DNA of 64,000 nucleotides, from positions 248,001 through 312,000 of the forward strand of contig NZ_RCCE01000002.1 of the NCBI RefSeq assembly GCF_003663885.1, read 5' to 3'. Each line of letters starts with the position of its first letter. Position 1 is the stretch's first letter. The notes below the pieces were generated by a model. The model saw only the letters and a list, made by a program, of their open reading frames with translations. It was not told where the DNA came from and did no database searches. Source of the DNA: Litoreibacter meonggei (GTDB taxonomy: Bacteria > Pseudomonadota > Alphaproteobacteria > Rhodobacterales > Rhodobacteraceae). A program made the position numbers and the translations under genes. Shown here piece by piece: positions 20,587 to 37,299 of the stretch.

Positions 20587-20661
20587 GCGGGCGTAGCTCA
20601 GGGGTAGAGCATAACCTTGCCAAGGTTAGGGTCGAGAGTTCGAATCTCTTCGCCCGCTCCA
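20587..20661 (+). tRNA. tRNA-Gly (GCC)
   Basis: 75 nt with encoded CCA. Acceptor GCGGGCG/CGCCCGC, anticodon loop TTGCCAA with anticodon GCC, and the T-loop TTCGAAT. Its 3' 45 nt are the attL repeat of the island that follows. Integration restored an intact tRNA. Confidence 0.97.
20617..20661 (+). repeat. attL: 45-bp direct repeat inside tRNA-Gly
   Basis: Identical over 45 bp to 35542-35586. It begins at the anticodon loop (TTGCCAAGG) and runs to the CCA end. Typical of tyrosine-integrase targets in tRNA genes. Confidence 0.95.
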
Positions 20662-20749: not shown

Positions 20750-21874
20750 TCATTCAGGTTTTTCTGGGATATCGAGTTCGAAAACCGTGTTCCGAAGCGA
20801 AGATTCGGGGATGTGAAGGTAGTGTGCTTCGGTCACCCGTGAGTTCGGAGAGTGGCCCACAAGCTTCTTGATCGTGCTGAGTGGCACCCCCCGCAGATAC
20901 TGATAACTGGTGAATGCCTTCCGCGCATACTTCGGGGTGAACTTCATGGGCTTCCCATACCGTTCCACCCCAGATCGTTTGACTGCTGACTTCAACGACT
21001 TGCGATAATTGTCCATCGGCTTGTTCTTACCATCACGGTTCGGGAACACCCACTCCAGGTTGGTAGATCGCTTCAACTTCAGCAAATCAGCGGCCAGACC
21101 GTCACCGAAGGCCATTTCCCGATTGGACAGTCCCGTTTTGGGCGTCTCACCATTCACAACGCCGACCTTCAGCACTTTACGGTCAAGGTCGATGGCATCC
21201 CACTTTAGCCTCTTTGCCTCACTTGGACGCAACCCAGTCTCAATCATCAACCTAGTCAGCACTGCTGGCATCTCTGGTAACTGCTGAAGAATCAGGACGA
21301 TTTCATCCTGCATGGGGACCTCTGTGTCCACGGGGACCTCATTCAGCATCGGCACCTTAGGCATGACTTCTATCAGTCGATGGTTGTGGCACCAGTTCAT
21401 CAATGCCCGCAGCTTTCGGCATTCGGTGTTGATCGTCACGGGTTTTACCTGCTCACCCAGACGATGACGCTGGTAAGCTTCGATACGTGCCGCATTTATC
21501 TTTGAGATATCTTCGTCTTTGAAGAAGCCCATCACGTGGCGCAGCCCATTCAGGTCAGTGCGCAAAGAACTCTCTTTCTTTAGACCACTCGTGACCCGAA
21601 GTTGCTGACCCTCCAACCACCTTCCAAACACATCATGCAACCCCAGCCCGCATTGGCCCTGATTCTGCATCATCTCGCCAAGCTGCAAATCCTTGTTCAT
21701 TTGCCGAGCAGCCATCATTGCTGCTGACTTTGATGGATGCCGATGCCGCCGACGCTTTTCGTTACCGTTGAAGTTTGGGGGAACATCTACGAACCAATTT
21801 CCAGTCCCCTGCCCCTTCACGACCTCAGCCCGAACCGTAAGCGCACCAACCTTTTGTGTGGTCTTCTTAGTCAT
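20750..21874 (-). CDS. int: Tyrosine-type site-specific integrase
   Basis: 374 aa. N-terminal arm-binding and SAM-like core-binding regions (about 1-185), catalytic domain about 190-360. Catalytic residues visible: Arg216 in ETGLRPSEAKRLKW, Lys246, Arg318 in TPKYARKAF, His341 in LVGHSPNSR, and Tyr352 in EAHYLHI. Box II has Lys rather than the usual His at position 315. It lies 88 bp from attL and points into it, as integrase genes of tRNA islands usually do. It should excise and integrate the island. Confidence 0.95.
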   Translation of the reverse strand: MTKKTTQKVGALTVRAEVVKGQGTGNWFVDVPPNFNGNEKRRRHRHPSKSAAMMAARQMNKDLQLGEMMQNQGQCGLGLHDVFGRWLEGQQLRVTSGLKKESSLRTDLNGLRHVMGFFKDEDISKINAARIEAYQRHRLGEQVKPVTINTECRKLRALMNWCHNHRLIEVMPKVPMLNEVPVDTEVPMQDEIVLILQQLPEMPAVLTRLMIETGLRPSEAKRLKWDAIDLDRKVLKVGVVNGETPKTGLSNREMAFGDGLAADLLKLKRSTNLEWVFPNRDGKNKPMDNYRKSLKSAVKRSGVERYGKPMKFTPKYARKAFTSYQYLRGVPLSTIKKLVGHSPNSRVTEAHYLHIPESSLRNTVFELDIPEKPE

Positions 21875-22289: not shown

Positions 22290-22305
22290 GTGGGTCCTCA
22301 TGGAT

Positions 22306-23224: not shown

Positions 23225-24259
23225 TCAGGGACCGAGTGCCCCCCGTTCCTGAGGTGGACCACGGCATCCATCGCAACCAGTCTGTTTGCGACGCGGATCA
23301 TAGACACTGCTAGAATGGTGTTTCACTACGGTTGTGGTAACGCAAGCTACGTGCAGACCATGGACACGACGATATGATATCAGAGCGGGCTTCCTCATCG
23401 GTTGCCGTCGATCCTGATGATGGTCCGTCTTTACTGCTGTTTGTGCTCGTGCCTGAGCCTCTGCCTTGGCCTCTGCCAGTGCAACGGTCAGTCGCTCCCT
23501 GAGCCACCGCCGTGGACGGTGATAGCTGTCACGTGTGTAGTCCCAGGCCACTGGATCGTTCTTTCGCAATTGGCTGAGCCGCTGCGGAGTGTGGAAGCGT
23601 CCTTGCCCGGTGCGGAGACCGCGTTCGTTCATCTCATCACAGATATCTCGATACGGCGGCATATGCCCGCGTCCATCAATGACCATCTGCTTTACAACTT
23701 TCAGCACGTCAGACTGCCGATCCTTTGCCAACTGTCTGCTCTTGGCAGCGGCCTGCTTCGACCAATTGCCGATGTCCGGCGACCCCATGGTTCCTCCGGC
23801 AGCCTGATACCGTTTAATACCAATGTAACGGGCGTTGTGTTGTGCTTTTGTGTCTTTGTGAATCTTGATGTGATCACCCGACTCGACCACTTGATCCAGG
23901 CACAAGCCTGTTGATGCATCGAAAATACGATGCCCCAGACCCTGGCGTTGAATCAGTTCAAAGATATCTGGTCGTCGGGCAATACGGTCGATGTTCGATA
24001 CCAAGATGATAGCGAATGGATTGCGCTGAAGCAGTCGAAGGCACTTGCCGAGACCTGACGCCATCCTGATCTCAGGGTCTGCAAGACCAGAAACATGTTC
24101 AGTGATGTTATCAATGCATGAGTGAGAAATACTGAAATCAGGATAAACTGATTTGATAATATCAAGCTGGCTACGATACTCTTGTTTCGATTGTTCTTTG
24201 GTGCTCACTCTTCGGTATAGAATGAAACCACATGAGGAAATCCTCGGATTGATCGCCAT
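23225..24259 (-). CDS. Large serine recombinase-like protein
   Basis: 344 aa from the ATG at 24259. N-terminal serine recombinase domain (about 10-150): FILYRRVSTKEQSKQEYRSQ with the catalytic Ser, and ILVSNIDRIARRPDIFELI with the conserved DRxxR. The middle (about 170-280) resembles the Recombinase/HTH region, and the C-terminus is Arg/Gln-rich low complexity. The frame stays open to 24403, but the added N-terminus looks non-coding. Shorter than typical large serine integrases. Probably related to a past or alternative mobilisation route. Confidence 0.7.
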   Translation of the reverse strand: MAINPRISSCGFILYRRVSTKEQSKQEYRSQLDIIKSVYPDFSISHSCIDNITEHVSGLADPEIRMASGLGKCLRLLQRNPFAIILVSNIDRIARRPDIFELIQRQGLGHRIFDASTGLCLDQVVESGDHIKIHKDTKAQHNARYIGIKRYQAAGGTMGSPDIGNWSKQAAAKSRQLAKDRQSDVLKVVKQMVIDGRGHMPPYRDICDEMNERGLRTGQGRFHTPQRLSQLRKNDPVAWDYTRDSYHRPRRWLRERLTVALAEAKAEAQARAQTAVKTDHHQDRRQPMRKPALISYRRVHGLHVACVTTTVVKHHSSSVYDPRRKQTGCDGCRGPPQERGALGP

Positions 24260-24629
24260 TGATGATACTGAGTTTTTATATGTAAAATCCGAACTAGAGG
24301 ATGAACCACAGAAGCCCTGCTCTGCTTGGCCTGGAGCCGCCACTTCCGCCGGAACAATCTGGCCATCCGGCGCTCCGGTCGATCTGCCCCAATCGTATTT
24401 CATCGAATGATCAATGCCCTTAGTTTTCGTTAGTCCGATTGAAGATAGTGAAAAAATCGCGGAGGCGGTAATTCAGCCCCCGCAGATGATGATGCTGATC
24501 ACACCATGACCTTCGGATTATGGTATTTAGTCGGACCGCTGTCTGACAGAGCCACTTGAGTCAAACAGGCAGCAAACTTCATGACTCCAAACGATGCCAT
24601 CCGCCTAAATACTAGGAGGAGGATGACCC
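24260..24629. other. Gene-free stretch in the island
   Basis: About 370 bp between the serine recombinase start and the RHH gene. It holds a leftward terminator (24451-24483) and a good AGGAGGAGG ribosome site (24614-24622) for the RHH gene. No other defendable ORF or RNA. Confidence 0.5.
24451..24483 (-). terminator. Leftward rho-independent terminator
   Basis: Minus strand: an 8-bp stem (GCGGGGGC/GCCTCCGC with one G-U pair), 9-nt loop, then a T-rich tail. It would end transcripts coming from the lipoprotein/HTH genes to its right, shielding the recombinase genes. Confidence 0.6.
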
Positions 24630-24803
24630 ATGATGAAACGCTTTTCCGTGCGGAACCTGAACGAGGATGCCATCGATATGCTGGCAGAGATCAAGGCTGA
24701 GGAACGCCGTGAACTAGGCGCGATCCTGGAAGATTGTATCAACACATATTGGCAGGACCTGTTTGGAGACGACGACGTTGATGACCTGACAGAAGCGGCG
24801 TAG
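24630..24803 (+). CDS. Small ribbon-helix-helix-like protein
   Basis: 57 aa, MMKRFSVRNLNEDAIDMLAE at the start, like the strand-helix of RHH (CopG/FitA-type) DNA-binding proteins; acidic C-terminus (GDDDVDDLTEAA). A near-perfect AGGAGGAGG ribosome site lies 8 bp upstream. No toxin gene follows it, so an orphan antitoxin or a small regulator are both possible. Confidence 0.65.
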   Translation: MMKRFSVRNLNEDAIDMLAEIKAEERRELGAILEDCINTYWQDLFGDDDVDDLTEAA

Positions 24804-24936
24804 CGGCTTTACAATGTTAGCCCACGGCTGACGTAAACATCCATGAAGGCCGGAGGTTCGATCAAGGGCTTACGTCATTGTATTCATAATTTGTGTCTTC
24901 CTAGTTTTCTACTGGTGATTGGGATAACGGAGGGGG

Positions 24937-25299
24937 TCAAAGTCCGTTGGCCCAGTCGATGCAAGCGTCCAGGCGAGTGATATCGCGGCTCTGCACGTCA
25001 CCTCGACTGATCGCACTGCCATGGTTCTGGCCCCGCCCCATCTCTCGGCGGAAGATGTTTGCATTCTCGGCGTCCCAGTTCACAGGGGCTGGGAATGAGC
25101 GAGACGCACGGTCGGCCACTCGTTGAAACGTGCCACGAGGATACCGAAGATGGCCACGTTGGATGGCCACTTCAGCGTGAGGGTAAATGCCAACGCAGTA
25201 TCCATAGAAAATCGCATCGCTCTCAGTAATGGATGGCTGACAAGCTGCTAGGCCCGTGAGTGCCGTGGCGAAGGCCGTCGCCCTGATCGTCGCTATCAA
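24937..25299 (-). CDS. Small lipoprotein of unknown function
   Basis: 120 aa. Lipoprotein signal MIATIRATAFATALTGLAAC with the lipobox LAAC at residues 17-20. The mature part is about 100 aa with two further Cys (YGYCVGIYPH, LDACIDWANG) that could pair after export. It overlaps the stop of the repressor-like gene by 4 bp, so the two are one unit. A phage-type superinfection or surface-exclusion lipoprotein is possible but not proven. Family not recognised. Confidence 0.65.
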   Translation of the reverse strand: MIATIRATAFATALTGLAACQPSITESDAIFYGYCVGIYPHAEVAIQRGHLRYPRGTFQRVADRASRSFPAPVNWDAENANIFRREMGRGQNHGSAISRGDVQSRDITRLDACIDWANGL

Positions 25300-25514
25300 C
25301 TTGTGTGCCCTCCTTTTTCTTTTTTCGGTATCTCCACCAAATCGTTCGCGCTTACCGCTCCGTCCGTTGCTACGACAATTGCAGTGAGGGTGGATCGATG
25401 TGGAAACACCCGCCCCGTCCTGATCCGAAAGACAGTGGCTGGGTTCACGCCAATTCGCTCTGCGAACGAAGCGCCCGAAATTCCATTGATCTTCAGATAC
25501 TCATCCAACTTCAT
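25296..25514 (-). CDS. Small XRE-family (CI/Cro-like) repressor
   Basis: 72 aa from the ATG at 25514 (MKLDEYLKINGISGASFAER). HTH at about 10-45 with VNPATVFRIRTGRVFPHRST as recognition region. Divergent from another HTH gene at 25645, with palindromes between them: the layout of a CI/Cro-type switch. It probably represses its own promoter and possibly the restriction operon. Confidence 0.8.
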   Translation of the reverse strand: MKLDEYLKINGISGASFAERIGVNPATVFRIRTGRVFPHRSTLTAIVVATDGAVSANDLVEIPKKEKGGHTS

Positions 25515-25515
25515 T

Positions 25516-25542
25516 GATATGCATAGTAAGCATATCATGCAT
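25516..25542. promoter_or_regulatory. Operator palindrome at the divergent HTH promoter (left)
   Basis: GATATGC-(7 nt)-GCATATC is a perfect inverted repeat at 25516-25536. It continues into GCATATCATGCAT (25530-25542), which recurs with one change at 25597-25609. It sits immediately upstream of the start of the small repressor. Confidence 0.65.
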
Positions 25543-25594
25543 GATTCGCAATATATGGAGATGAACAAATGTCATTCTGCACCTGTCACCATTC

Positions 25595-25609
25595 ATGCAT
25601 ATCGTGCAT
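25595..25609. promoter_or_regulatory. Operator palindrome at the divergent HTH promoter (right)
   Basis: ATGCA-(5 nt)-TGCAT inverted repeat; contains GCATATCGTGCAT, 12 of 13 identical to 25530-25542. It lies 36 bp upstream of the rightward HTH gene. Two like sites in a divergent region suggest cooperative repressor binding. Confidence 0.6.
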
Positions 25610-25644
25610 TATGGGTATAGCACTGGAGCAACAAAGGCCGCGAA

Positions 25645-26073
25645 ATGCTGCACAGGAAACTCAAGGAAGCGCGATTAGGTGCTGGTCTCACGATGGAGGC
25701 CGCAGCAGAGAAGCTGAGCCTCACGCAGAGCACCATCAGCCGCATCGAGGCTGGCGACACGGGTGTGACTTCACAGCGGCTCGTAGACTTGGCCTCCGCC
25801 TATGGCGTGTCACCAAGTGCTTTGCTCGATGGGTCGGTAGTGCGCAGCATGTCTGAGACGGACCTGGACCGACTGGGGATGGTGATTGAGTTTGTCGAAG
25901 CATCATTGGCTGATGCCAAACCCCGCCCACAGCCAAGCCAAATCAAGGATGTTGTGGTGACCATCTTTAAACAGGAAACCGCGATTGCTTGGGAGACCGG
26001 AGCCTCGTTCGACCCATCAAGATACCAAGACCTCGTGGCTCTTCTATTCAAGCAAAAGGGCCAAGCACGATGA
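25645..26073 (+). CDS. XRE-family HTH regulator of the restriction operon
   Basis: 142 aa. N-terminal XRE HTH (about 3-60: LKEARLGAGLTMEAAAEKLS, LTQSTISRIEAG), then a helical C-terminal part without a known domain. First gene of the rightward hsd operon and overlapping the next ORF by 4 bp. By position it acts like a controller protein that times methylase and nuclease expression, an inference. Confidence 0.8.
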   Translation: MLHRKLKEARLGAGLTMEAAAEKLSLTQSTISRIEAGDTGVTSQRLVDLASAYGVSPSALLDGSVVRSMSETDLDRLGMVIEFVEASLADAKPRPQPSQIKDVVVTIFKQETAIAWETGASFDPSRYQDLVALLFKQKGQAR

Positions 26074-26174
26074 ACGCCGTCGAGATCGAACAGGCCATCG
26101 TCCCGGCCGTTCAAGCAGAACAACCGGATGTGAATGCATCCCAAGAACAAGAATGTGAGTTTCTACCGTGGTGA
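26070..26174 (+). CDS. 34-aa ORF between the HTH gene and hsdM
   Basis: Begins with an ATG that overlaps the stop of the HTH gene (ATGA) and ends inside the GTG start of hsdM (GTGGTGA). The peptide is acidic (EIEQAIVPAVQAEQPD near the N-terminus) and has one Cys. The coupled starts and stops suggest it is translated, perhaps as a link that carries ribosomes to hsdM. No homologue recognised. Confidence 0.5.
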   Translation: MNAVEIEQAIVPAVQAEQPDVNASQEQECEFLPW

Positions 26175-28171
26175 ACCATCAGGAAAAGACGACTTTTATC
26201 TGGTCCATCGCTGACCTGCTGCGAGGTGACTACAAGCAGTCAGAATACGGGCGTGTGGTTCTTCCATTCACAGTCCTTCGTCGTCTGGACTGTATCCAGG
26301 CCCACAGCAAGGATCAGGTGTTGGCCAGGGCCAAGATGTTGTCCGACGCAGCAGCCCCAGAGATGCGGGAGCAGGCGTTGAAGTCCGCGTCCGGTCACGG
26401 TTTCTACAACACGTCGCCCTATGATTTTGGCAAGCTGCTCGATGATCCAGATGACCTCGCTGACAATCTAAAGGCTTACGTGAACGCTTTTTCCACCGAC
26501 ATCCGTGAGACCGTCGGCGTTCATTTCAAGTTCTTCGACCAAGTGCAGAGGCTAGAGGATGCCGATCTGCTGTTCCGTGTCGTGGAACGGTTTGCCAATC
26601 TCGATCTTGATCCAGCCCGCGTCAGCAACATGCAAATGGGGTATGTATTCGAAGAACTAATCCGGCGTTTCTCTGAACAGTCGAACGAAACAGCAGGTGA
26701 GCACTTCACCCCCCGTGAGGTTATCCGCCTCATGGTTGATCTTCTGTTCACCGAAGACGGGGATGCCCTCACCCAACCAGGTGTGATCAAAACGCTATAC
26801 GATCCTGCATGTGGCACTGGCGGCATGATGTCCGTAGCCGAGGACTATCTCCGCGACATGGCACCGGATGCAAAGCTCATCGTGTTTGGTCAGGAACTGA
26901 ACGGTGAGTCATATGCCACCTGTAAGTCAGACATGCTGATCAAGGGCCAGCGGGCCGAGAACATCGCCCAGGGGAACACATTTACGACGGACGCACATGC
27001 AGGCCGCACCTTTGATTACATGCTGTCCAACCCACCTTTCGGCGTGGAATGGAAGAAGGTTGAGAAAACCATTCGTGACGAAGCAGCCCTTGGCTTCTCC
27101 GGCAGGTTCGGGGCAGGACTGCCACGGGTCAGCGATGGGTCCCTACTGTTCCTCCAGCACATGATTTCTAAGTTCCATGATGATGCACCGTCCAAGCTGG
27201 CTATCGTGCTCAACGGCTCCCCTTTGTTCACGGGCGGGGCCGGATCGGGCGAGTCCGAAATCCGTCGCTGGGTCATCGAGCAGGACTGGCTAGAGGCCAT
27301 CGTCGCCATGCCTGATAACCTCTTCTACAACACAGGTATCAGCACATATGTCTGGGTCGTGACCAACCGCAAACCCAAACGCCGTAAAGGCATAGTTCAA
27401 CTGATCGATGCATCTGCCATGTGGACCAAGATGCGTCGGTCGTTGGGCGAGAAGCGCAAAGAGATCACAGAGCCTGACATCCACCGCATCGCCCGAATCT
27501 TTGGGGATATGGAGGTGTCTGACATCTCCAAGGTCTTCGACAACACTGACTTCGGCTACCACCGGATCACAGTCGAACGTCCGCTACGTCTGAACTTTGC
27601 CTTCACACCGGACCGCATCGCCCTGGTGGAGGCCGCGAAGCCATTTCAGAACCTCGCCTCGTCCAAGAAGAAGGGTGCGGCCAAGGAGCAAGAGATCACC
27701 GACGGTGAACTTCTTCAGGCCGACATCCTGTCCACCCTGCGTGGCATGGAGGGCGGGGAAGTCTGGACCAATAGAGAGGCGTTCACGGCTCACCTGAAGG
27801 CCGCGTTCAAGACCACGGGCGTGACCCTCGCCGCAGCCCCCTTCAAGGCCGTCCTGATGGCCCTGAGTGAGCGCGACCCAAAGGCGGATATCTGCCGTGA
27901 CAAGAAGGGCAACGCCGAACCGGATGCCGACTTGCGGGACAACGAGAACGTGCCGCTGAAAGAAGACATCGCCGATTACTTCGAACGCGAAGTTCTGCCC
28001 CACGTCCCTGACGCCTGGATCGACCATTCCAAGACGAAGGTAGGCTATGAAATCCCCTTCAATCGTCACTTCTATCGCTATGAACCGCCCCGCCCACTGG
28101 CCGAGATCGACGCCGACTTGCAGGTGCTCGGTCGGGAAATTCACGACCTTTTGTCGGAGGTCATCACATGA
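26168..28171 (+). CDS. hsdM: Type I restriction-modification N6-adenine methyltransferase HsdM
   Basis: 667 aa. N-terminal HsdM_N helical region (about 5-150), SAM-binding motif DPACGTGG at 212-219, and catalytic NPPF at 288-291 (SNPPFGVEW). A C-terminal extension of about 180 aa beyond the core makes it longer than the classical 500-530 aa HsdM, as in a known long subgroup. It methylates adenine in the target set by HsdS. Start is GTG (26168, or the next codon). Overlaps the OLD gene by 4 bp. Confidence 0.95.
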   Translation: MVNHQEKTTFIWSIADLLRGDYKQSEYGRVVLPFTVLRRLDCIQAHSKDQVLARAKMLSDAAAPEMREQALKSASGHGFYNTSPYDFGKLLDDPDDLADNLKAYVNAFSTDIRETVGVHFKFFDQVQRLEDADLLFRVVERFANLDLDPARVSNMQMGYVFEELIRRFSEQSNETAGEHFTPREVIRLMVDLLFTEDGDALTQPGVIKTLYDPACGTGGMMSVAEDYLRDMAPDAKLIVFGQELNGESYATCKSDMLIKGQRAENIAQGNTFTTDAHAGRTFDYMLSNPPFGVEWKKVEKTIRDEAALGFSGRFGAGLPRVSDGSLLFLQHMISKFHDDAPSKLAIVLNGSPLFTGGAGSGESEIRRWVIEQDWLEAIVAMPDNLFYNTGISTYVWVVTNRKPKRRKGIVQLIDASAMWTKMRRSLGEKRKEITEPDIHRIARIFGDMEVSDISKVFDNTDFGYHRITVERPLRLNFAFTPDRIALVEAAKPFQNLASSKKKGAAKEQEITDGELLQADILSTLRGMEGGEVWTNREAFTAHLKAAFKTTGVTLAAAPFKAVLMALSERDPKADICRDKKGNAEPDADLRDNENVPLKEDIADYFEREVLPHVPDAWIDHSKTKVGYEIPFNRHFYRYEPPRPLAEIDADLQVLGREIHDLLSEVIT

Positions 28172-30039
28172 GCCTCCACGTAACGAAAATTGACATTCGA
28201 AATTTCCGATCCGTTCGTAACCTCACTTTGTCTCCAGCGAAGCTTGCCGTGCTTGTTGGAAAGAATGATGCTGGAAAGTCCAATGTGCTCAGGGCACTCA
28301 ACTTGTTCTTCAATGGGCGGACGATGCCTGGAGATGAATTGGATTTCTCGACTGATCACAATGTATTCCACCAACCCAATCGTCGGGCGAAAGAAATCTC
28401 GATCAAACTCGAACTCGAACTCCCAGGGTCATATCGTGACACCAACGGTGACTTTATTCAGTGGGAACGTCGATGGCGGGCCGAGGGCCTAGTTCATGAC
28501 CAATACGAAGGTAGGCGGAGGGTTGCTGGGCCGCGTGGCGGTGCAGGTCTGGAAGTGGTGGACATACCAGACCGCTCCAACGTTCACGCACTTCTGCGAA
28601 ACATCAACTTCGTCTACGTCCCAGCCATCAAAGACTTGGAATACTTCTCCGAGCTTCGTGCAAGCATCTACGACGTGATCGCCGAGGTTGCTGATCGGCA
28701 GTTCAGGGACTCCAGTCACGAGTTCGAAAATTCAATTTCTGATCAACTTGGCGACCTGACAACACAGATAACTGCATCGTTGGGGCTCAGGTCTCGTTTG
28801 GCGCTACCTAAAGACCTGAGCCACATTTTCGAGAGCCTGGATTTCTTGAGTGAGGGGCAAGACATCTCACTGGATGCACGTGGTGATGGTATCAAGGCAC
28901 GACACATCCCGCTGATATTGAAATTCATGGCTGATAAGAAGCGGAGCCTCCAAGTCAGAGGCGCACAACCCCACACGTTTATCTGGGGATATGAAGAACC
29001 GGAGAACAACCTGGAACTGTCCAGTTGTGTCGAACTGGCAGATCAGTTCTGGGACTTCATCGATGAGGGCGTGTCACAAGTCTTTCTGACCACGCACTCC
29101 CCCGTATTCTACAACCTACATCGCAAGCAGGAAGAGCCGGAACGCCGGATAACCTGCCATCATATATTCAGAGAAGCTGAGGAGGACGGAACGCAGCAGG
29201 CAACCGAGCTTGGCGACCTAGATGATCGTATGGGAACGACAGCACTGTTCGCCCCAATGATAACCGAGCTTGAAGACAAAGTTCGACGGAAAGAACAGGC
29301 GCGTATCGATGTCGAGCAACTGGCTCAGGCCAATCGACGGAAAGTCTTTGTCGAGGGAGACTCAGACCAACTGATATTGCGAAAGGCACTGGCGGTCTTT
29401 GCACCGGACAGGGCCGGTGAGATAGATGTTGAGACCAAAGTGGGCGGAGGGATCAACTATGTGGTGGACATGTTGCAGTCGTGGCGAAGCAGAGCAAAGC
29501 ATCACCCCGAACTTCCAAAGGCGGCAGGGCTTTTGGACCTCGATCCTGAAGCGCAGGCGGCGATCACGAACTGGAACGGTGTGGCTGGCAACACCAAATC
29601 CGCCAAGTGCTTCAGGCTACCGACACCAACGCACTTGATACCCGCTCTGCAAGCAGGCTTCAGTGTGCCCATTGTTCTTGAGTGCCTCTATGACCGGGAT
29701 GCATGGGAATGGGCTGATGGGCGCAATCATCTCAAGGTTCGCCATGTCCCAAGCGTCATCTCCAAAGAATTAAACAACCAGATTGTCACGGGGCAAACGG
29801 CGCTGGACGATCACCTCGACGATGCATGGGCGATCTTCGTCAAGAAAGACTTCGAGCAAGCGGGCAAGATGCCCATGGCACGGCATTTTTCAAACAAGTC
29901 AAATGATGATTTCAGGGCGCGATTGCCTTTCCTGGCCCCTCTGATCGACAGTATCGTAGACTATTTGTTCCCTGCCGCTGACGACGCGGCCCCAGCGGAT
30001 GTCGCACAGGATGGTCAAGGCAACGAGGTGGCTGAATGA
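28168..30039 (+). CDS. OLD-family ATPase/TOPRIM nuclease inside the hsd operon
   Basis: 623 aa. N-terminal RecF/SMC-like ATPase: Walker A GKNDAGKS (31-38), ABC-type region ARGDGIKARHIP (about 237-247), Walker B with EEPE (276-279), and His310 in LTTHSP. The C-terminal half has a TOPRIM-like domain: Glu397 in KVFVEGDSDQ and the acidic pair in LLDLDPEA (457-459). Gabija GajA and other OLD nucleases have the same order. No GajB-type helicase is nearby. Overlaps both hsdM and the next small ORF (ATGA), so it is made with the restriction enzyme. Confidence 0.92.
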   Translation: MSLHVTKIDIRNFRSVRNLTLSPAKLAVLVGKNDAGKSNVLRALNLFFNGRTMPGDELDFSTDHNVFHQPNRRAKEISIKLELELPGSYRDTNGDFIQWERRWRAEGLVHDQYEGRRRVAGPRGGAGLEVVDIPDRSNVHALLRNINFVYVPAIKDLEYFSELRASIYDVIAEVADRQFRDSSHEFENSISDQLGDLTTQITASLGLRSRLALPKDLSHIFESLDFLSEGQDISLDARGDGIKARHIPLILKFMADKKRSLQVRGAQPHTFIWGYEEPENNLELSSCVELADQFWDFIDEGVSQVFLTTHSPVFYNLHRKQEEPERRITCHHIFREAEEDGTQQATELGDLDDRMGTTALFAPMITELEDKVRRKEQARIDVEQLAQANRRKVFVEGDSDQLILRKALAVFAPDRAGEIDVETKVGGGINYVVDMLQSWRSRAKHHPELPKAAGLLDLDPEAQAAITNWNGVAGNTKSAKCFRLPTPTHLIPALQAGFSVPIVLECLYDRDAWEWADGRNHLKVRHVPSVISKELNNQIVTGQTALDDHLDDAWAIFVKKDFEQAGKMPMARHFSNKSNDDFRARLPFLAPLIDSIVDYLFPAADDAAPADVAQDGQGNEVAE

Positions 30040-30182
30040 GTGTTGCAGCATTTTCAGTCTTGGAGAACCTACTTCCTGCGACGAAGGCAAGGCTTGCCAA
30101 GGCCGATCTGGATCAGCGGCAAGAGTTTTACACACAACTGACCAATCACTGCTGGTCACCTGACCGGCTGTTGGAGGTGTGA
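30036..30182 (+). CDS. 48-aa ORF after the OLD nuclease
   Basis: ATG at 30036 overlaps the OLD stop (ATGA). The peptide has an amphipathic helix (ATKARLAKADLDQRQEFYTQ) and no other recognisable feature. The next gene starts two bases after its stop. The tight packing argues that it is translated. It could be a linker ORF or the remnant of a longer N-terminal part of the next protein. Confidence 0.5.
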   Translation: MSVAAFSVLENLLPATKARLAKADLDQRQEFYTQLTNHCWSPDRLLEV

Positions 30183-30183
30183 T

Positions 30184-30582
30184 GTGACGAAAGATACCTT
30201 CAACGGGGACTTCCACAAGGCGGTCACGCAACTGATCCAGCACCATGACAACATCACACCGTGGAACACATATGACCTGATGCCCGAAGAGGGTGGCTTG
30301 GATACCTCGTCCATCAAATTCTACGAATGCGGTAACGGAAAGCCCTTGGTGCATCATACGGCCCCACGTCGTGGTGGGCTGTGGATTCGGTCAATCGATA
30401 TGCACGAAGATGCCTATGTCGGTGAGGGCATGAACCCGTTGGCCGATGATCCGGCACGGGCAGCCATGGCACCGGCGTCCCACATCCTGAAGCTCCCAGC
30501 GATGCAGGAAGGGCGGCTGATGTCCTATGACGGTCGCGACCTGTGGCGAGTGGTCGATATCATCAGGGAGTTGGCCGGATGA
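30184..30582 (+). CDS. 132-aa protein of unknown function in the hsd operon
   Basis: Starts with GTG at 30184 and overlaps hsdS by 4 bp. Mixed composition with no transmembrane segment; conserved-looking features are IQHHDNITPWNTYDLMPEEG, a single Cys, and IRSIDMHEDAYVGEGMNPL. I do not recognise the family. Its place between an OLD nuclease and HsdS suggests a role in the same defence complex. Confidence 0.75.
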   Translation: MTKDTFNGDFHKAVTQLIQHHDNITPWNTYDLMPEEGGLDTSSIKFYECGNGKPLVHHTAPRRGGLWIRSIDMHEDAYVGEGMNPLADDPARAAMAPASHILKLPAMQEGRLMSYDGRDLWRVVDIIRELAG

Positions 30583-31901
30583 ATGTTCAATCCTCAGCCT
30601 ACGTAAGCACAGCCTCAGAATGGCTACCCACGCCGCCTTCTCACTGGCAGGTAAAACCTTTCCGTCATTGTTTTCGACCAAGTGACGAACGCAACGGGCC
30701 AACGCCAATCGGTGAGATGCTTTCCGTGTCGGGCTATCGCGGTGTTGTCGTAAAAAACTATGAGTTCGAAGAACAGAAGCGCAGTGCGGAGGAACTAGAA
30801 ACCTACCGCGTCGTCCGGCCTGGACAATTGGCCGTCAACACCATGTGGTTAAACTACACTGGCCTCGGTGTTTCTGAGCATCTTGGCTACGTTAGTCCGG
30901 CCTACCGAGCCTATTGGGTTCAGCCGGGACTTCATGGCCGCTACGTTCACCATCTTCTTCGTTCATCAGTCTACGTGGCCGGATACACGTCGCTGCTTCA
31001 AGGTATCCGCCCTAACTCACTTCAAGTGCCCACAGACTCATTTCATTCGATCCCGATCCTTGTTCCCCCCCTTGAAGAACAACAGATCATCGCCGGGTAT
31101 TTGGATCGGGAAACGGGGCGGATTGATGCGTTGGTGGAGCGGCTGGAGCGGCTCATTGCGCTGCTGACCGAAAAGCGTCAGGCCGTCATCTCTCACGCCG
31201 TCATCAAGGGCCTCAACCCCGACGCCCCCATGAAAGACAGCGGCATCGATTGGCTCGGCGAGGTTCCAGCGCATTGGGATGTTAAACCACTGCGATATGC
31301 AATTTGGTATCAGGAGGGTCCGGGCATTCTTGCGGATGACTTTTATGAGGAAGGTGTGCCGCTTATACGAGTTTCTGGTGTTCGTGGTCGTTGGGCATCG
31401 CTGGATGGCTGTAACTACCTTGACCCTGAAAAAGTTGAAAGGCGCTGGAAACACTTCAAGGTGACATTGGGCGATCTTCTGATCAGTGCGAGTGCATCAA
31501 TGGGTGTTGTAACTGAAGTAGGACCTGATGTTGTCGGTGCAGTCCCATACACGGGCATCATCAGAATGCGTCCGATCCTAGGTGAAACTACTCGCGATTT
31601 CATTAGGTCCTTTTTCGTTTCAAACCAGTTTATGACACAAGTTGATCTTCTGAAGGCAGGTGCCACCATTCAACATTTCGGTCCATCGCATCTAAGCCAA
31701 ATGCAAATGGCGGTGCCACCTATCGAAGAGCAGGAGCGGATTACTAGTTTTGTTGATGCTGCAATCAACGAGTATATGGAAACGGAGGCGAAGGCTCAGT
31801 CGGTGTTGGATGCTGTAAAAGAACGCCGCTCCGCGATGATCTCCGCCGCCGTCACAGGCCAAATCCCTCTCGCCGATATGACCGAGGAGGATCCGGCATG
31901 A
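30579..31901 (+). CDS. hsdS: Type I restriction specificity subunit HsdS
   Basis: 440 aa. Two target-recognition domains, each followed by a conserved helix. The first half ends with VPPLEEQQIIAGYLDRETGR and the second with VPPIEEQERITSFVD. WLPTPPSHWQVKPF and WLGEVPAHWDVKPL mark the start of each TRD. It sets the DNA target for both methylation and cleavage. Start at 30579 overlaps the unknown gene; its stop overlaps the next gene. Confidence 0.95.
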   Translation: MNVQSSAYVSTASEWLPTPPSHWQVKPFRHCFRPSDERNGPTPIGEMLSVSGYRGVVVKNYEFEEQKRSAEELETYRVVRPGQLAVNTMWLNYTGLGVSEHLGYVSPAYRAYWVQPGLHGRYVHHLLRSSVYVAGYTSLLQGIRPNSLQVPTDSFHSIPILVPPLEEQQIIAGYLDRETGRIDALVERLERLIALLTEKRQAVISHAVIKGLNPDAPMKDSGIDWLGEVPAHWDVKPLRYAIWYQEGPGILADDFYEEGVPLIRVSGVRGRWASLDGCNYLDPEKVERRWKHFKVTLGDLLISASASMGVVTEVGPDVVGAVPYTGIIRMRPILGETTRDFIRSFFVSNQFMTQVDLLKAGATIQHFGPSHLSQMQMAVPPIEEQERITSFVDAAINEYMETEAKAQSVLDAVKERRSAMISAAVTGQIPLADMTEEDPA

Positions 31902-32329
31902 ATGAACTTCACGATTTCGTTGATGGGCTGATGACCTTCCAAAGGCCAGACCACGGATCGCCCCAAAAATCCGCGTTCATGCTGGAACATCGGGTTGGCC
32001 TCTTCATCACGCTTCTGAACCTTCACAACGTCGGTGCCATCAGCCTTGGTGCCGAACATCCCGACCCACCAGAAAGCTGTGACTTGTGCAGCAAACTACT
32101 GTCCGGCCAGCCGGTTTTCATCGACGGCCAGACACAGCGCGACGGCAACACCCAGTTCTCACCATGGGCGAACATGTGCTCCGACTGCTTTATGCAGGAA
32201 GGGCGTGGGATCGGTTGGGGCGTTGGGCAACTCTACCGAGGGGTCATCACTGACGGACAAGAGGGATGGTTCTTACTGGGTGGCGGTGATCCCGATGGTG
32301 TTTCAACTCCAACGGAGCCTTGGTCATGA
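31898..32329 (+). CDS. 143-aa CxxC protein between hsdS and hsdR
   Basis: Contains two CxxC pairs, CDLC (about residue 62) and CSDC (about 94), separated by 28 residues with FIDGQT and SPWANMC: a likely zinc-binding ribbon. The C-terminus is Gly-rich (GGGDPDGV). Small proteins with a similar pattern occur near phage and plasmid genes, but I cannot name a family. Overlaps both neighbours by 4 bp, so it is part of the hsd transcript. Confidence 0.8.
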   Translation: MNELHDFVDGLMTFQRPDHGSPQKSAFMLEHRVGLFITLLNLHNVGAISLGAEHPDPPESCDLCSKLLSGQPVFIDGQTQRDGNTQFSPWANMCSDCFMQEGRGIGWGVGQLYRGVITDGQEGWFLLGGGDPDGVSTPTEPWS

Positions 32330-35322
32330 ACATTCACACGGAACGCACCTTTCAGGATATCATCAAGGCCAGCCTCTGCGAGGGTGGAGGCTATACCGAA
32401 GGGGACAGGACCACATTTGACGCCGAACGCGGTCTGTTCCCGCCGTCGATCTTCCGGTTCATCCAGACCACCCAGCCCGACACTTGGGACGCCCTGCAAA
32501 AGGCATATGGCCCCAAGGCCGAAGCCCGCATCCTAGAACGGATCATGGAGACGAAGGCCAAAGACGGGACGCTGCACCTGCTGCGCCACGGCTTCCGCGA
32601 TGTCACCGTGGGGCAAGTGCGGCTTGCCTATTTCCGACCCAACACGGGCCTGAACCCCGATACCGCCGCCCGCTATGCCGCCAACGTCCTCGAAGTGACG
32701 GATGAGGTGCACCACTCCCTGCGCACCCCCAAGGACCGTCTGGACCTTGTGCTGTCGCTCAACGGTATCCCCGTCGCCACGGCAGAGTTGAAGAACAGCT
32801 TCACAGGGCAGACCGTCGCCAATGCGGTCAAGCAATACAAGTTCGACCGATCCCCCAAGGATGCAATGTTGGCCTTCAAGTCCGGTGCGCTAGTCCACTT
32901 TGCCGTTGATGGCTCCGAGGTTTACATGGCGACCAAGCTGGCGGGGAAGGCCACGTTCTTTCTGCCGTTCAACCGTGGCCGCGATGGCGGTGCGGGCAAC
33001 CCCGATCACGCTTCGGGCCACCGGACGGCCTATCTGTGGGAGGATGTGTGGTCGAAAGATCGATGGCTCGACATTATGCAACGGTTCGTATTCCTCGACC
33101 GCAAGGAAGAGAAGGACGATAAGGGCAAGCTGAAGGTTAAAGAGACGATGATCTTCCCCCGCTATCATCAGCTTGATGTGGTCACCGCCCTGATCGCGGA
33201 TGCCAAGGCCAACGGGGCGGGTCAGAACTACCTCGTCCAGCACTCCGCAGGGTCCGGCAAGTCGAACTCCATCGCATGGTTGTCGCATCGTCTGGCGGGG
33301 CTGCACGACGCCCAGGACAGCCGCATCTTTGATAGCGTGATCATCATCACCGACCGGCGGGTGTTAGATGCCCAGTTGCAGGAAACGGTGTTCGGCATCG
33401 ACCACAAGTCCGGCATGGTGGAACGCATTGATCCCGCCAAGGGATCGAAGTCCCCGCAACTGGCCAAGGCCCTGAACGAGGGCAAGCAGATCATCGTCTG
33501 CACCTTGCAAAGCTTCTCTGCCGTCTATGGCAGCGAGGCCCATGATGTGTTGGACCAATCCGGCAAACGCTTCGCAGTGATCGTGGACGAGGCCCACGGC
33601 AGCCAGCACGGCACCGCCGCTGAAGATGTGCGCAAGGTGCTGGGATCGGACGGAAAAGACGCGGTGGAGATCGCCGATGGTGACATCGACCCGCTGATCG
33701 TCAATGCGATCCGTCAGAAGGGCAAGCAGCCGAACCTAAGCTTCTTTGCCTTCACCGCAACGCCCAAGAAGCGGACCGTCGAGACGTTTGGCCACTACCC
33801 CGCTGGATCAATTGAACCGATGCCGTTCCACATCTATTCGATGCGGCAGGCCATCGAGGAGGGATTCATCCACGATGTCCTGAAGGGTTACACGACCTAC
33901 AAGGCGTTCTATCGCCTGGAAAAGACCATCGAGGACGATCCCGAACTGGAGAAGAAGAAGGCCCAGAAAGCGATTGCGCGGTTTATGTCGCTGCACCCGC
34001 ACAACTTGGCTCAGAAGACTGAAGTGATGGTAGAACACTACCGCACCCATGTCCGGCATCGATTGGGTGGCAAGGCAAAGGCGATGGTCGTAACATCCAG
34101 CCGTCTTCATGCTGTCCGGTATCATCAGGCATTCCAGAAATACATCACGGACAAAGGGTATGACCTTGGTGTTCTGGTGGCCTTCTCCGGTGCTGTGCCT
34201 GATCCTGACATCGCAGGGCAAGAGTATACCGAGCCTGGGATGAACGGCTTCAAGGAAACCGAACTGCCGGACAAATTCGGCAAGGCGGACCAGCACTTTT
34301 TGATCGTCGCCGAGAAGTATCAAACGGGTTTCGATCAGCCGTTGTTGCATACGATGTATGTAGACAAACGATTGCAGGACCTTGCGGCGGTGCAAACACT
34401 GTCACGCCTCAACCGGACGACATCGGGCAAGGACGATACCTTCGTGCTCGACTTCGTGAACGAGGCTGACGAGATCAAGGAAGCCTTCAAGCCATATTTC
34501 GAGACTGCCGAGATCGACGAGCCAACCGATCCTAACATGATCTATCGGCTGCATTCTGATCTGGTGGCGTTCCAGTATTTCTGGGCCCAGGAGGTCGAGG
34601 CATTTGCCAGTGCGTTCTACGACCCCAAACGTAAGCCTCAGGACCAGGGTAAGCTCTACGCCGCCACAGACCCTGCTGTGGGACGCTTCAGTGATGAACC
34701 TGATGAAGACCGACAGGAGACCTTCAGGAAGACGCTGACGCAGTTCCTCAGGCTCTATGCGGCGATCACACAGATGGTGCGGATCGAGGACACGGACCTC
34801 GAAAAACTCTACACGTTCGGGCGGTTGCTCAGGGCAAGGCTTCCCAAGCGCGAAGGCGGCGGTGCATTAGCCATAGATGGGGATGTGGGGCTGGAATACT
34901 ACCGTCTCAAGAAAACGTCGGAGGGAGATGCATCGCTTAACCAGGGTGACTTGGTGCCGCTGTCTGGCACGACCAGCGTTGGCACCAGTGGGGCTGGTGA
35001 ACCTGAGTTGGCACAACTGTCGGAAATCCTGGGGACGGTGAACCAACGGTTCAACTATGATTTCACGGACGCGGACAAGATCGCCGTGGACCAGTGGGCC
35101 GCAGACATGATGGCTGACGAAGTGGTGGTGGCTCAAGCTCGGACCAATAGCTACGAGAACTTCACCATGGCCAATGCTGATGCCGTCATGGAGAAAGCGT
35201 TCGCCAGGAATGAACGAAACCCTGAGGTGCTGGCAAAGCTACTGGGTAATGCGGAAGCCTGGGCCATGGTGCGGGATGCGGTGCTGAAGGCTGTGTATGA
35301 CAGTTCGCAGCATAGGCACTAA
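32326..35322 (+). CDS. hsdR: Type I restriction endonuclease subunit HsdR
   Basis: 998 aa from the ATG at 32326 (overlapping the preceding stop; a TTG six bases earlier is also in frame). N-terminal HSDR_N nuclease domain with the Asp and the ELK of LVLSLNGIPVATAELKN (about 140-155). SF2 helicase core with Walker A SAGSGKSNS (about 307-315) and DEAH at about 420-423, then the TATPKK region. It translocates DNA and cleaves when HsdS sites are unmethylated. Last gene of the operon. Confidence 0.95.
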   Translation: MNIHTERTFQDIIKASLCEGGGYTEGDRTTFDAERGLFPPSIFRFIQTTQPDTWDALQKAYGPKAEARILERIMETKAKDGTLHLLRHGFRDVTVGQVRLAYFRPNTGLNPDTAARYAANVLEVTDEVHHSLRTPKDRLDLVLSLNGIPVATAELKNSFTGQTVANAVKQYKFDRSPKDAMLAFKSGALVHFAVDGSEVYMATKLAGKATFFLPFNRGRDGGAGNPDHASGHRTAYLWEDVWSKDRWLDIMQRFVFLDRKEEKDDKGKLKVKETMIFPRYHQLDVVTALIADAKANGAGQNYLVQHSAGSGKSNSIAWLSHRLAGLHDAQDSRIFDSVIIITDRRVLDAQLQETVFGIDHKSGMVERIDPAKGSKSPQLAKALNEGKQIIVCTLQSFSAVYGSEAHDVLDQSGKRFAVIVDEAHGSQHGTAAEDVRKVLGSDGKDAVEIADGDIDPLIVNAIRQKGKQPNLSFFAFTATPKKRTVETFGHYPAGSIEPMPFHIYSMRQAIEEGFIHDVLKGYTTYKAFYRLEKTIEDDPELEKKKAQKAIARFMSLHPHNLAQKTEVMVEHYRTHVRHRLGGKAKAMVVTSSRLHAVRYHQAFQKYITDKGYDLGVLVAFSGAVPDPDIAGQEYTEPGMNGFKETELPDKFGKADQHFLIVAEKYQTGFDQPLLHTMYVDKRLQDLAAVQTLSRLNRTTSGKDDTFVLDFVNEADEIKEAFKPYFETAEIDEPTDPNMIYRLHSDLVAFQYFWAQEVEAFASAFYDPKRKPQDQGKLYAATDPAVGRFSDEPDEDRQETFRKTLTQFLRLYAAITQMVRIEDTDLEKLYTFGRLLRARLPKREGGGALAIDGDVGLEYYRLKKTSEGDASLNQGDLVPLSGTTSVGTSGAGEPELAQLSEILGTVNQRFNYDFTDADKIAVDQWAADMMADEVVVAQARTNSYENFTMANADAVMEKAFARNERNPEVLAKLLGNAEAWAMVRDAVLKAVYDSSQHRH

Positions 35323-35419
35323 CTCATGTTTGGCATCACCGCGATGGATTGATGGTGGTGTTGCTTACGGACTGATTTTCTGCTAACATAACAGCAACCG
35401 TTGGAACTGGCGGAAAAAA

Positions 35420-35436
35420 TTGCCAAAGTTGCCAAA
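35420..35436 (+). repeat. Paired TTGCCAAA repeats near attR
   Basis: TTGCCAAA at 35420-35427 and 35429-35436, in the same orientation as the pair near attL. Followed in both cases by a GGTTTT stretch. Likely integrase arm sites. Confidence 0.55.
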
Positions 35437-35541
35437 TGAAGGTTTTGGCCTCCCTTCATGAGCCACAACTCAAGCACATTTTTTTGGCAGCCCAATTTCG
35501 AAAACACCAATAAAATAAGGCATTTTAGGTAGGCAGCCCAA

Positions 35542-35586
35542 TTGCCAAGGTTAGGGTCGAGAGTTCGAATCTCTTCGCCCGCTCCA
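35542..35586 (+). repeat. attR: 45-bp copy of the tRNA-Gly 3' end
   Basis: Perfect match to 20617-20661. It marks the right border of the island; it lacks the 5' half of the tRNA and cannot make a tRNA. Confidence 0.95.
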
Positions 35587-35652: not shown

Positions 35653-37299
35653 CTAAGCCGCAAGAATGTGTGCCAATGATCCTGAAACGCTCGTTCGTAC
35701 GGAACGGCCATATTGCGCCACGTTTGACCGCAATTCAGGGAAAACGTCGAATAATTCCTCACGCGCGCCGTCATGCAGACCCGGCAAACTGAAATCGCCG
35801 GGCTGGTAGCTTTCGGTCGCAATTCCGTTTGCGGTGATAACCTGGTGTCTGTCAAACATCAGGTGGTAATAACTGACCTGACCGCTTGGCAATTGGCGCA
35901 CGTTAATCCCGTCAACCATGTGACGGGCGGCAATGAGAACCTCTTCGTGACCAAAATAAAGCTGTGGCAGATGTCCTTCGCGCAAGATGCGATGCTGCGG
36001 CGAAACACGTAGGGGCAGTGCGTTACCCATCGCCCCGGCTATAAATTCGATTGGTGCATGGCGGGCGCTTGCCTTCATGTGACGACTACCAACCCACCGA
36101 ATAGGCTGCGGGCCGTCATCCCGCGTCAGAACCAGATCACCCACGCGCAACGCCTCGACGAGTCTAGGTCCGCTAGGGGTCTCGATTAGTGTTCCATCGC
36201 AAAAGCAGATCGGCGCCGCGTTGAAAGTCACGAAAGCGCTGTCGGTATTCCCGTCTGTGTCCTCGATCGTATAGCTGAAGGATGTCTGACCGGTCGCACC
36301 ACCTGTGTTGACCAAGGTGATGGTGCCGTTGGCATTCAGCGTAACGTCCTGCCCTGTTGCCAGCGTCACTGTTTGCCCAGAGACAACGTTCACACCATTG
36401 ATTTGGGTTATGGTTAGCGCTTGTCCAGTAGGATCAGAGTCATTGGCAAGGATATTGACCGTCTTGGGATTGCTGCCAAAGGTATTAATCCCCGTGTCAT
36501 CGGTTGCGATCGGATCTGTGTCGGACGTGTCTGGCACATTGTTCGACGCTATGACGATAGAGCTGTCATAAGCAGTGTCACCGACATCGGCGATCCCGAT
36601 CATCAAGTCGTAAGACACGCCCGGCGTGACGGGAATATCAAGTGATAGCGTAACCGTGAACCCGTCCATCTCGGTCGCGTAGGTTCCGCTGGCGTTGTCG
36701 ACATATAGGTTCGGATTTGCGCTATCGAATTGGCCGTTGCCCGGATTGGGGTCGTTGGCCTCTGAGCCATTGGACGGGTTGAAGGTGCCAGCATTGTTGA
36801 TCCCGTTCACCGATATCTCACCGGATCCCACCGAAATCGGCTGCGTTACGCCATTCAGTTGAACCAAAGCAATGTCGTTAAAGTTCGAATAGACGTACTC
36901 GTTATATTCTTCCGAGTAGAAGCGAAACTCTATGTTGATTGACGTTTGGCCAGGCTCTGGCGTGAAATTGATCTCTAGAAAAGACGCATCGAAGGTGCTC
37001 TGTCCCGCAGCCGCATTGAACGCGGCATTACCGTCAATACCCGCGGTGTTTGTCGTCGTGCCACCGCCCGTGTTGTTCGCACCGGTTGCATTGGCGAATG
37101 AGGCGACGTTGCCGGTCGAGAAAATAACACCGGAGTCAGACGGAAGGACACCCGGGTTCGTGGTATCCCCGTCGGTATATGTAGCCGACGATCCCGACGC
37201 ACCAGAATAGGTCGCAGAGTTGATGGTAAACCCTGACCCCAAAATTTCTGACGCCATCGCTACTGCGCTGGCGCTGGTATCTGCGTTTAACGCCGCCAC
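35653..37299 (-). CDS. Secreted Hint-domain protein with choice-of-anchor-type N-terminus
   Basis: 548 aa. The N-terminal half is Gly/Ser/Thr/Asn-rich and acidic, of the choice-of-anchor-L type (about 15-240; FRFYSEEYNEYVYSNFND). Then a short cadherin/Ig-like module (about 250-355, NILANDSDPTGQ). The last 180 aa are a Hint domain of the Rhodobacteraceae type, starting CFCDGTLIETPSGPRLVEAL. No classical signal peptide; such proteins are often exported by type I systems and the Hint part may self-process. First chromosomal gene beyond the island. Confidence 0.88.
   Translation of the reverse strand: MAALNADTSASAVAMASEILGSGFTINSATYSGASGSSATYTDGDTTNPGVLPSDSGVIFSTGNVASFANATGANNTGGGTTTNTAGIDGNAAFNAAAGQSTFDASFLEINFTPEPGQTSINIEFRFYSEEYNEYVYSNFNDIALVQLNGVTQPISVGSGEISVNGINNAGTFNPSNGSEANDPNPGNGQFDSANPNLYVDNASGTYATEMDGFTVTLSLDIPVTPGVSYDLMIGIADVGDTAYDSSIVIASNNVPDTSDTDPIATDDTGINTFGSNPKTVNILANDSDPTGQALTITQINGVNVVSGQTVTLATGQDVTLNANGTITLVNTGGATGQTSFSYTIEDTDGNTDSAFVTFNAAPICFCDGTLIETPSGPRLVEALRVGDLVLTRDDGPQPIRWVGSRHMKASARHAPIEFIAGAMGNALPLRVSPQHRILREGHLPQLYFGHEEVLIAARHMVDGINVRQLPSGQVSYYHLMFDRHQVITANGIATESYQPGDFSLPGLHDGAREELFDVFPELRSNVAQYGRSVRTSVSGSLAHILAA

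Follow-up and report, generated by a model that had tools for sequence, protein, structure and literature searches.

Layout of the operon

The 64,000-nt stretch of DNA analysed here (hereafter, the window; contig NZ_RCCE01000002.1 of Litoreibacter meonggei) carries on its forward strand, at positions 25645-35322, an operon in which the genes of a type I restriction-modification system are interspersed with a gene for an OLD-like ATPase and several small open reading frames (ORFs). The components are listed below with the profile matches (E-values) or comparisons on which each assignment rests; sister loci are the three near-identical operons described in the next section, and dN/dS is the ratio of nonsynonymous to synonymous substitution rates.

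25645..26073, + strand: helix-turn-helix (HTH) controller gene (Pfam HTH_3 9.7e-15; PADLOC HTH_VI 9.1e-09, Control_protein 6.9e-06)
26070..26174, + strand: 34-aa ORF (p34), probable coupling leader (comparison with sister loci)
26168..28171, + strand: hsdM (PADLOC MTase_I 2.1e-287; Pfam N6_Mtase 4.2e-57, HsdM_N 4.8e-26)
28168..30039, + strand: OLD-like ATPase and probable nuclease, carried as cargo in the hsdM-hsdS slot (AAA_15 4.9e-24; PADLOC AriA 1.3e-25, Old 8.8e-16)
30036..30182, + strand: 48-aa ORF (p48), stump of a GmrSD-type gene (C-terminal 34 aa; identity to the 3' end of the GmrSD gene of sister locus L043)
30184..30582, + strand: 132-aa protein (p132), real gene (92% in L043, 23% in locus L116; dN/dS 0.165)
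30579..31901, + strand: hsdS (Methylase_S 5.9e-10, two stretches; PADLOC Specificity_I 1.8e-95)
31898..32329, + strand: 143-aa protein (p143) containing two CxxC pairs, carried as cargo at the hsdS-hsdR junction (missing from sister loci L043, L044 and L045)
32326..35322, + strand: hsdR (SWI2_SNF2 3.1e-22, HSDR_N 2e-11)

All nine reading frames exist in the order given by the first-pass annotation of this DNA (HTH, 34-aa ORF, hsdM, OLD-like, 48-aa ORF, 132-aa, hsdS, 143-aa, hsdR); the operon start it had placed at 26070 is that of the 34-aa ORF, while the operon itself begins with the HTH gene at 25645. Six of the eight junctions are 4-bp ATGA overlaps (HTH/p34, HsdM/OLD, OLD/p48, p132/HsdS, HsdS/p143 and p143/HsdR), in agreement with the earlier description of one coupled unit, and the remaining two are a GTG overlap (p34/HsdM) and a 1-nt gap (p48/p132). 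Judged by its gene content, the locus is a complete type I restriction-modification operon, with profile matches identifying an HsdM with an N6-adenine methylase domain, an HsdS, and an HsdR with nuclease and translocase domains. The earlier reading also holds in that this type I operon includes one more gene, OLD-like and of defence type, comparable to the rlo/mlo genes of Campylobacter type I loci. At a cut-off of E 0.1, p34, p48, p132 and p143 match no family of Pfam, PADLOC or NCBIfam, and no PHROGs match was reported for p34, p48, p132 or the OLD-like protein, which were scanned alongside p143.

Exchange of cargo between hsdM and hsdS

An HsdM-based scan of 84,980 species returned 530 relatives, the best 80 of which were kept as loci. 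Among these are three near-identical operons (HsdM and HsdR at 90-96%), from Cognatishimia (L043), Yoonia (L044) and Jannaschia (L045): their HsdM proteins share 96%, 90% and 90% identity with that of the window, the next HsdM of the set being at 61%, and their HsdR proteins share 91-92% (92% in Cognatishimia). The three operons have different contents between hsdM and hsdS. In Cognatishimia, a 622-aa GmrSD-type nuclease, type IV-like (GmrSD_N 1.6e-33, GmrSD_C 6e-10; best PADLOC match HEC-06, 1.1e-37) replaces the OLD-like protein, and p132 is present at 92% identity. In Yoonia, an OLD-like protein at 79% identity occupies the equivalent position and is followed by a stump of the kind described below, with both p132 and p143 absent. 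In Jannaschia, hsdM leads directly to hsdS and on to hsdR, so that the slot is without cargo. Since near-identical hsd genes flank an OLD-like gene, a GmrSD-type gene or nothing at one and the same junction, the junction of hsdM and hsdS is a slot for exchangeable cargo. In all three sister operons hsdS overlaps hsdR directly, with no gene in between.

These comparisons bear on the earlier view that the OLD-like protein and the three small proteins form a fixed set, which does not survive them: the OLD-like gene and the stump occur without p132 and p143 in Yoonia, p132 occurs with GmrSD and without OLD in Cognatishimia, and no cargo is present in Jannaschia. Only one of the 80 fetched loci (Yoonia) has an OLD orthologue inside the operon and none has the full gene set of the window. 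That HsdM, OLD, p48, p132, HsdS, p143 and HsdR would constitute a single novel machine is thus highly improbable; the nearly continuous overlaps along the operon speak for it, but its parts have been gained and lost separately, p48 is a gene fragment, and the p143 relative that was opened does not lie in an hsd operon. As a fixed nine-gene system the idea is rejected, its parts varying independently across the sister loci.

The nature of p48 is revealed by the comparison with Cognatishimia. Window positions 30078-30593 are 92.6% identical to L043 13786-14301, the first 105 nt of which are the 3' end of the 622-aa GmrSD gene, and the last 34 residues of p48 match the C-terminus of the GmrSD protein (79%). 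p48 has neither the GmrSD_N nor the GmrSD_C domain and holds the last 34 aa only, the gene being intact in Cognatishimia. The stump of Yoonia is longer, and 38 aa of it match the intact GmrSD of a Myxococcales locus (L046) at 42% identity (E 1e-8 and 2e-7 in the two directions of a four-sequence comparison); as this stump matches an intact outgroup protein, the change ran from GmrSD to stump. p48 is therefore the C-terminal leftover of a GmrSD gene and not a separate unknown gene, the latter possibility being rejected on the identity to the Cognatishimia 3' end together with the outgroup match of the Yoonia stump. The last codons of the stump, or of the gene, contain the motif GGAGGTG directly before p132 (window and Cognatishimia) or before hsdS (Yoonia), and the stump may have been kept because its end supplies the following gene with a ribosome-binding site. 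Of the small proteins previously listed as unknown, p132 is thus retained as a real gene and p143 as present, while p48 is a fragment and p34 is probably a coupling leader (see below).

The operon is a mosaic. Synonymous divergence (dS) between the window and Cognatishimia amounts to 0.16-0.20 for the stump and p132, 0.50 for hsdM and 1.26 for hsdR, and such unequal values indicate that the segments were exchanged at different times.

Use of the slot extends beyond the sister operons. A census covered the 63 of the 80 hsdM-family loci that have hsdR in view (the 17 without it were left out, and five further family loci, L140-L144, lie outside the census). The distance from hsdM to hsdR is 1196-1425 bp, about the length of hsdS, in 28 loci and 1900-7623 bp in 35, and each of the latter contains at least one non-hsdS ORF of at least 90 aa. 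When 20 of the 72 slot ORFs were scanned, 16 matched a Pfam family at E 0.01, some of them below the curated cut-off; the families comprise GmrSD, DUF4268, Schlafen AlbA_2, RhuM/Fic, the YhcG nuclease, HNH, cytidine deaminase and an AAA_21/DUF4276 pair, several of which are nuclease families. Such diversity of cargo across related hsd loci could signify that the slot is a neutral landing place, where the OLD-like gene and p143 hitch-hike for expression and are functionally unrelated to restriction. OLD relatives without hsd genes (see below) would fit this, as would the fact that slots with ATGA junctions let a cassette enter without breaking the coupling. We nevertheless find it doubtful, given that nuclease or defence-type families account for several of the cargo genes (a comparison that does not extend to enrichment over random island genes), that the coupling is intact after insertion, and that p132 persists under selection.

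The OLD-like protein and its relation to restriction

In the N-terminal ATPase part of the OLD-like protein, the Walker A, EEPENN and LTTHSP residues are invariant in five aligned sequences (window included), and residues 1-348 align to a three-sequence OLD-type alignment with an hhalign probability of 98.8%; the alignment covers the ATPase part and not the C-terminal part. The nearest solved structures by sequence, OLD of T. scotoductus (2e-8) and GajA (4e-8), likewise correspond to the N-terminal part only, and a PDB search with the C-terminus returned unrelated proteins (best E 0.48). Of the earlier assignment as an OLD ATPase/TOPRIM protein, the ATPase is borne out by the AAA_15 match, whereas the TOPRIM half corresponds to a motif, E396/D457/D459, invariant in five sequences (D457/D459 in eight). 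Relatives match DUF3226 weakly in this region (L039 1.3e-05, L038 0.026), and L038 also matches a GajA profile (0.03). The OLD-like TOPRIM profile PF20469 matches the OLD-type proteins of L016 (1.6e-13) and L017 (3.6e-19), but misses a third OLD-type ATPase, which lies beside a helicase gene on an Aminobacter plasmid (L005 5569-7395), and is therefore not complete. By its motif, a TOPRIM identity of the C-terminus is plausible. In that plasmid, the OLD relative directly follows an AAA ATPase/helicase gene pair resembling Gabija (L005 5569-10806), and a relative on a Rhizobium plasmid (L007 9001-10711) is split over two frames and looks broken.

Membership in Gabija, a retron or a two-gene PARIS system was considered and rejected, as no partner gene is present in the operon: no GajB helicase (Gabija, Class 2 OLD) lies beside the OLD-like gene, HsdR being the only helicase among the operon genes, and no AriB (PARIS, Class 4) is among the operon PADLOC matches listed. 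AriA is the best PADLOC match of the OLD-like protein (89 bits, best stretch residues 6-85) and, single-gene AriAB fusions being mentioned in PMC10568477, we are open to its being a relative of fused AriAB. Like Class 1 OLD proteins as described there, it has an N-terminal OLD-type ATPase encoded by one gene, without a GajB helicase or a reverse transcriptase; it differs from them in its C-terminus, which has no OLD-like TOPRIM profile match, and in its location within an hsd operon in the window and in Yoonia. Neither PrrC nor another anticodon nuclease is named in the Pfam and NCBIfam lists for the OLD-like protein or among the best 25 of its 108 PADLOC families, no direct comparison with PrrC having been made.

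A search for OLD relatives that was blind to hsd genes gave matches in 45 of 394 family genomes, one being the window's own, and in 8 plasmid records. Ten loci were opened: five from the 44 other family genomes, each with at least about 310 aligned residues (the 39 left out had matches of at most 201 residues, mostly in the Walker region), and five of the plasmid records (left out were two 49-residue matches and one duplicate record of the same strain). None of the ten has hsd genes in the surrounding DNA, of which one side is visible for L041, at a contig edge; two matches, of L038 to HsdS and of L005 to p132, each at E 0.009, look like chance and were not counted. The closest relative, at 77% identity (L038), lies among ORFs that by eye resemble metabolic genes. 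In general, therefore, the OLD-like protein can do without an hsd partner encoded nearby, which is a statement on linkage and not on action in trans. A viral-contig scan gave no OLD relatives.

The best explanation of these data, which we regard as probable, is that the OLD-like protein in the exchangeable slot provides a second, functionally independent anti-phage layer co-expressed with HsdM, HsdS and HsdR, next to the stump of an earlier GmrSD. Its starting points (gene order, different cargo at one junction, the stump, the mosaic origin and the island ends described below) are direct observations. The slot would formerly have held a GmrSD-type nuclease, as it does in Cognatishimia today; the OLD-like gene would have replaced all of the GmrSD gene except its end, the last codons remaining as the 48-aa stump; and OLD would be transcribed and translated together with HsdM, HsdS and HsdR, under the local HTH controller. 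It would then act on phages that escape restriction, with no need for HsdR.

Published precedents exist for extra defence genes in type I operons, namely PrrC, RloC/RloF, TgvAB and DarTG2 (PMC3874165, PMC2610378, PMC4619093, PMC11411939, PMC12255303). The closest parallel is TgvAB of Vibrio pathogenicity island 2, also a second defence enzyme within an island-borne hsd operon and of the GmrSD family found in Cognatishimia, which protects without HsdR activity (PMC11411939). In the window, by contrast, an OLD-like ATPase gene fills the slot between hsdM and hsdS, where GmrSD is reduced to a stump. The Campylobacter rlo genes (RloF has a GmrS domain) are similarly strain-variable extra genes between hsd genes, but the accessible text names no counterpart for a single-chain OLD-like protein, p132 or p143, and the window cargo lies between hsdM and hsdS (PMC4619093, PMC2610378). 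DarTG2 of E. coli, with RptR, is comparable in having a small controller gene upstream and a defence module placed inside a type I operon; its cargo is different, OLD lies in a different slot, and the likeness of RptR to the window HTH protein is one of description only (PMC12255303). The authors of that report regard hsdS-hsdR as a possible hotspot of recombination. An OLD gene and an hsdM gene of Pseudomonas PAO1161 were found to act independently, but as separate genes and not in one operon (PMC6945700).

EcoprrI-PrrC, in which an ATPase-effector is likewise embedded in a type I operon, suggests a different relationship: the HsdM/S/R complex would silence OLD, and a phage block of restriction would release it to kill the infected cell, with p132 as an adaptor. 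OLD is placed like prrC, which lies within a type I operon and has its product kept silent by the restriction enzyme (PMC3874165, PMC2610378); ATGA coupling favours co-production; and p132 has been seen between hsdM and hsdS only. We consider this unlikely, since the 77% relative in L038 and the other opened OLD relatives are not beside hsd genes, the Cognatishimia slot holds a GmrSD enzyme, and the HEC-06-type proteins related to it are described as working independently (PMC11411939), and the Yoonia OLD is present without p132. Silencing by the complex is a feature of PrrC, and the window matches listed include no anticodon-nuclease family. A PrrC-like trigger on restriction failure is possible, without specific support.

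p132 is a real, rare gene, as judged from its sequence conservation. Its dN/dS against the Cognatishimia copy indicates purifying selection, and a distant homologue from Sandarakinorhabdus (L116, 23% identity) has a score reached by none of 2000 shuffles and is found at E 0.008 among 26,159 frames by a two-sequence p132 profile. Searches blind to hsd genes found p132 in two of 394 family genomes (those of the window and Cognatishimia) and in one of 385 class genomes (the window's own), with no relatives in the plasmids, viral contigs or phages searched. A search of solved structures gave nothing useful, and the AlphaFold model, with a predicted local distance difference test (pLDDT) score of 38.5, was too poor for a fold search. 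All three known copies (window, L043 and L116) sit between hsdM and hsdS, the position of the L116 copy not being independent of hsd as it came from the HsdM-based screen. The co-occurrence with hsd genes that the first-pass annotation had raised is thus seen for p132, in three of three copies, but not for OLD, away from hsd in ten of ten loci, nor for the p143 relative of the one bacterial locus opened. The best explanation of p132 would be that of a slot-linked helper. Taken further, the hsdM-hsdS junction could be a dedicated effector socket, into which unrelated nucleases are swapped, coupled via the stump and linked by p132 to HsdM/S, such that one methylation sensor drives different killing effectors; we regard this as distinctly unlikely.

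Several points weigh against OLD being an independent second layer in an exchangeable slot. The C-terminal domain matches neither PF20469 nor any other TOPRIM profile, and the AlphaFold model of the OLD-like protein failed (pLDDT 34.2), as did that of p132. Four near-identical operons are known in all, and the swap rests on few events; the Pfam scan covered 20 of the 72 slot ORFs, and some of those on the opposite strand are possibly chance ORFs. Independence from HsdR is suggested by analogy with TgvAB, yet tgvAB alone is 10- to 100-fold less protective than the full five-gene cluster against several phages (PMC11411939). The purifying selection on p132 and its adjacency to hsdS could reflect a role in the HsdM/S complex. 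Finally, dN/dS of the stump is about 0.21 between the window and Yoonia (34 codons), so that the stump may be under some selection as a peptide; against Cognatishimia the value is 0.75, with few changes, compared with 0.03-0.05 for hsdM.

With a second, independent layer as the favoured reading, the locus represents a cargo exchange caught inside a restriction operon, with the scar of the earlier occupant in place. While embedded defence genes in type I loci are already known, an OLD-like gene as exchangeable type I operon cargo with a scar of the previous cargo is new: among the literature titles and abstract beginnings listed, from a coverage that excludes most subscription papers and all preprints, none mentions the replacement of GmrSD by OLD or the presence of an OLD gene at the hsdM-hsdS junction. 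Generalised into a rule, the stump suggests that a 'mystery ORF' in a defence operon may in some cases be a 3' stump, retained because the following gene has its ribosome-binding site there. The matched natural operons also offer a way to ask if an embedded nuclease relies on the restriction complex around it.

Remaining cargo, upstream region and genomic island

The 143-aa protein is specific to the window among the four near-identical operons, and its best explanation would be a separate insertion at the hsdS-hsdR junction. It weakly matches two PHROG families without assigned function (2.1e-4 and 9.7e-4), and partial matches, covering 22-37% of the protein, occur in six phage records, two of them of the same phage (E 6e-5 to 8e-3). 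Relatives were found in two of 385 class genomes, the window's own and that of L003, the sole bacterial p143-relative locus opened, which has no hsd match. There (L003 1489-2699), the relative overlaps by 4 bp an ORF that looks HNH-like by eye, and the two form a possible two-gene module. No relatives appeared in the viral-contig scan, and neither plasmid searches with p143 and with its L003 relative nor a search of solved structures gave anything useful.

Upstream of hsdM, p34 is probably a coupling leader, which is likelier than a protein in its own right because its last 20 aa alone recur in Cognatishimia and because the sister loci have, by eye, short ORFs of 22 (L043), 22 (L045) and 9 (L044) codons between the HTH gene and hsdM; on the same observations, p34 is rejected as a conserved protein. 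The region before the operon contains the following features.

25296..25568, - strand: divergent small HTH protein (weak HTH_31/HTH_26 matches)
25530..25612, no strand: promoter region in which a 16-nt element occurs twice (25530-25545 and 25597-25612), candidate operators of the HTH controller

Relatives of the divergent HTH protein occur in all three sister loci (tblastn; 43% in L043, 40% in L044 and 47% in L045), and relatives of the HTH controller, at 35-36%, at the equivalent position. The sister loci have a different paired palindrome at the equivalent upstream position (motifs read by eye), and the HTH protein would be an autoregulator. A sigma-70 scan before the operon found no promoter-like sites, against 5.1 expected by chance.

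The hsd operon ends a 14.9-kb integrative island inserted in a tRNA-Gly gene (20617-35586), which contains an integrase, an HTH_17 protein, two resolvase-like genes and the hsd operon. Its ends and integrase are as follows.

20617..20661, + strand: attL, marking the left island boundary and formed by the final 45 nt of the tRNA-Gly gene at 20587-20661 (recurs as a perfect 45-bp direct repeat at 35542-35586)
20750..21874, - strand: tyrosine integrase beside the tRNA-Gly gene (Phage_integrase 4e-19)
35542..35586, + strand: attR, marking the right island boundary, where the 3' end of the tRNA-Gly gene recurs (perfect 45-bp repeat)

One resolvase-like ORF (22429-22890) matches its profile from position 47 on and looks N-terminally incomplete; 23225-24403 encodes a 392-aa protein with a resolvase domain, and the Jannaschia island has, upstream of its operon, a relative of this protein at 48% over 268 aa. 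The Cognatishimia locus has a tRNA-Cys gene whose end recurs as a 20-bp repeat, and Jannaschia has, with no whole tRNA in view, two pieces of the same tRNA-Cys end (18 and 64 nt). Their integrase-like ORFs are 51% identical to each other, compared with 24% over 117 aa (E about 0.01) to the integrase of the window.

An empty island site was looked for in a congener (G553) and not found, its tRNA-Gly and matched right flank being about 10.7 kb apart; its genome has no match to OLD, p132 or HsdM, and its tRNA-Gly site may hold a different insertion. In that genome (C2, 1308515-1320569) the right flank is, by eye, hisB/hisH. Downstream of the island in the window, on the - strand at 35653-37299, is a gene for a long protein whose C-terminal part resembles, by its motif, a Hint (hedgehog/intein) domain.

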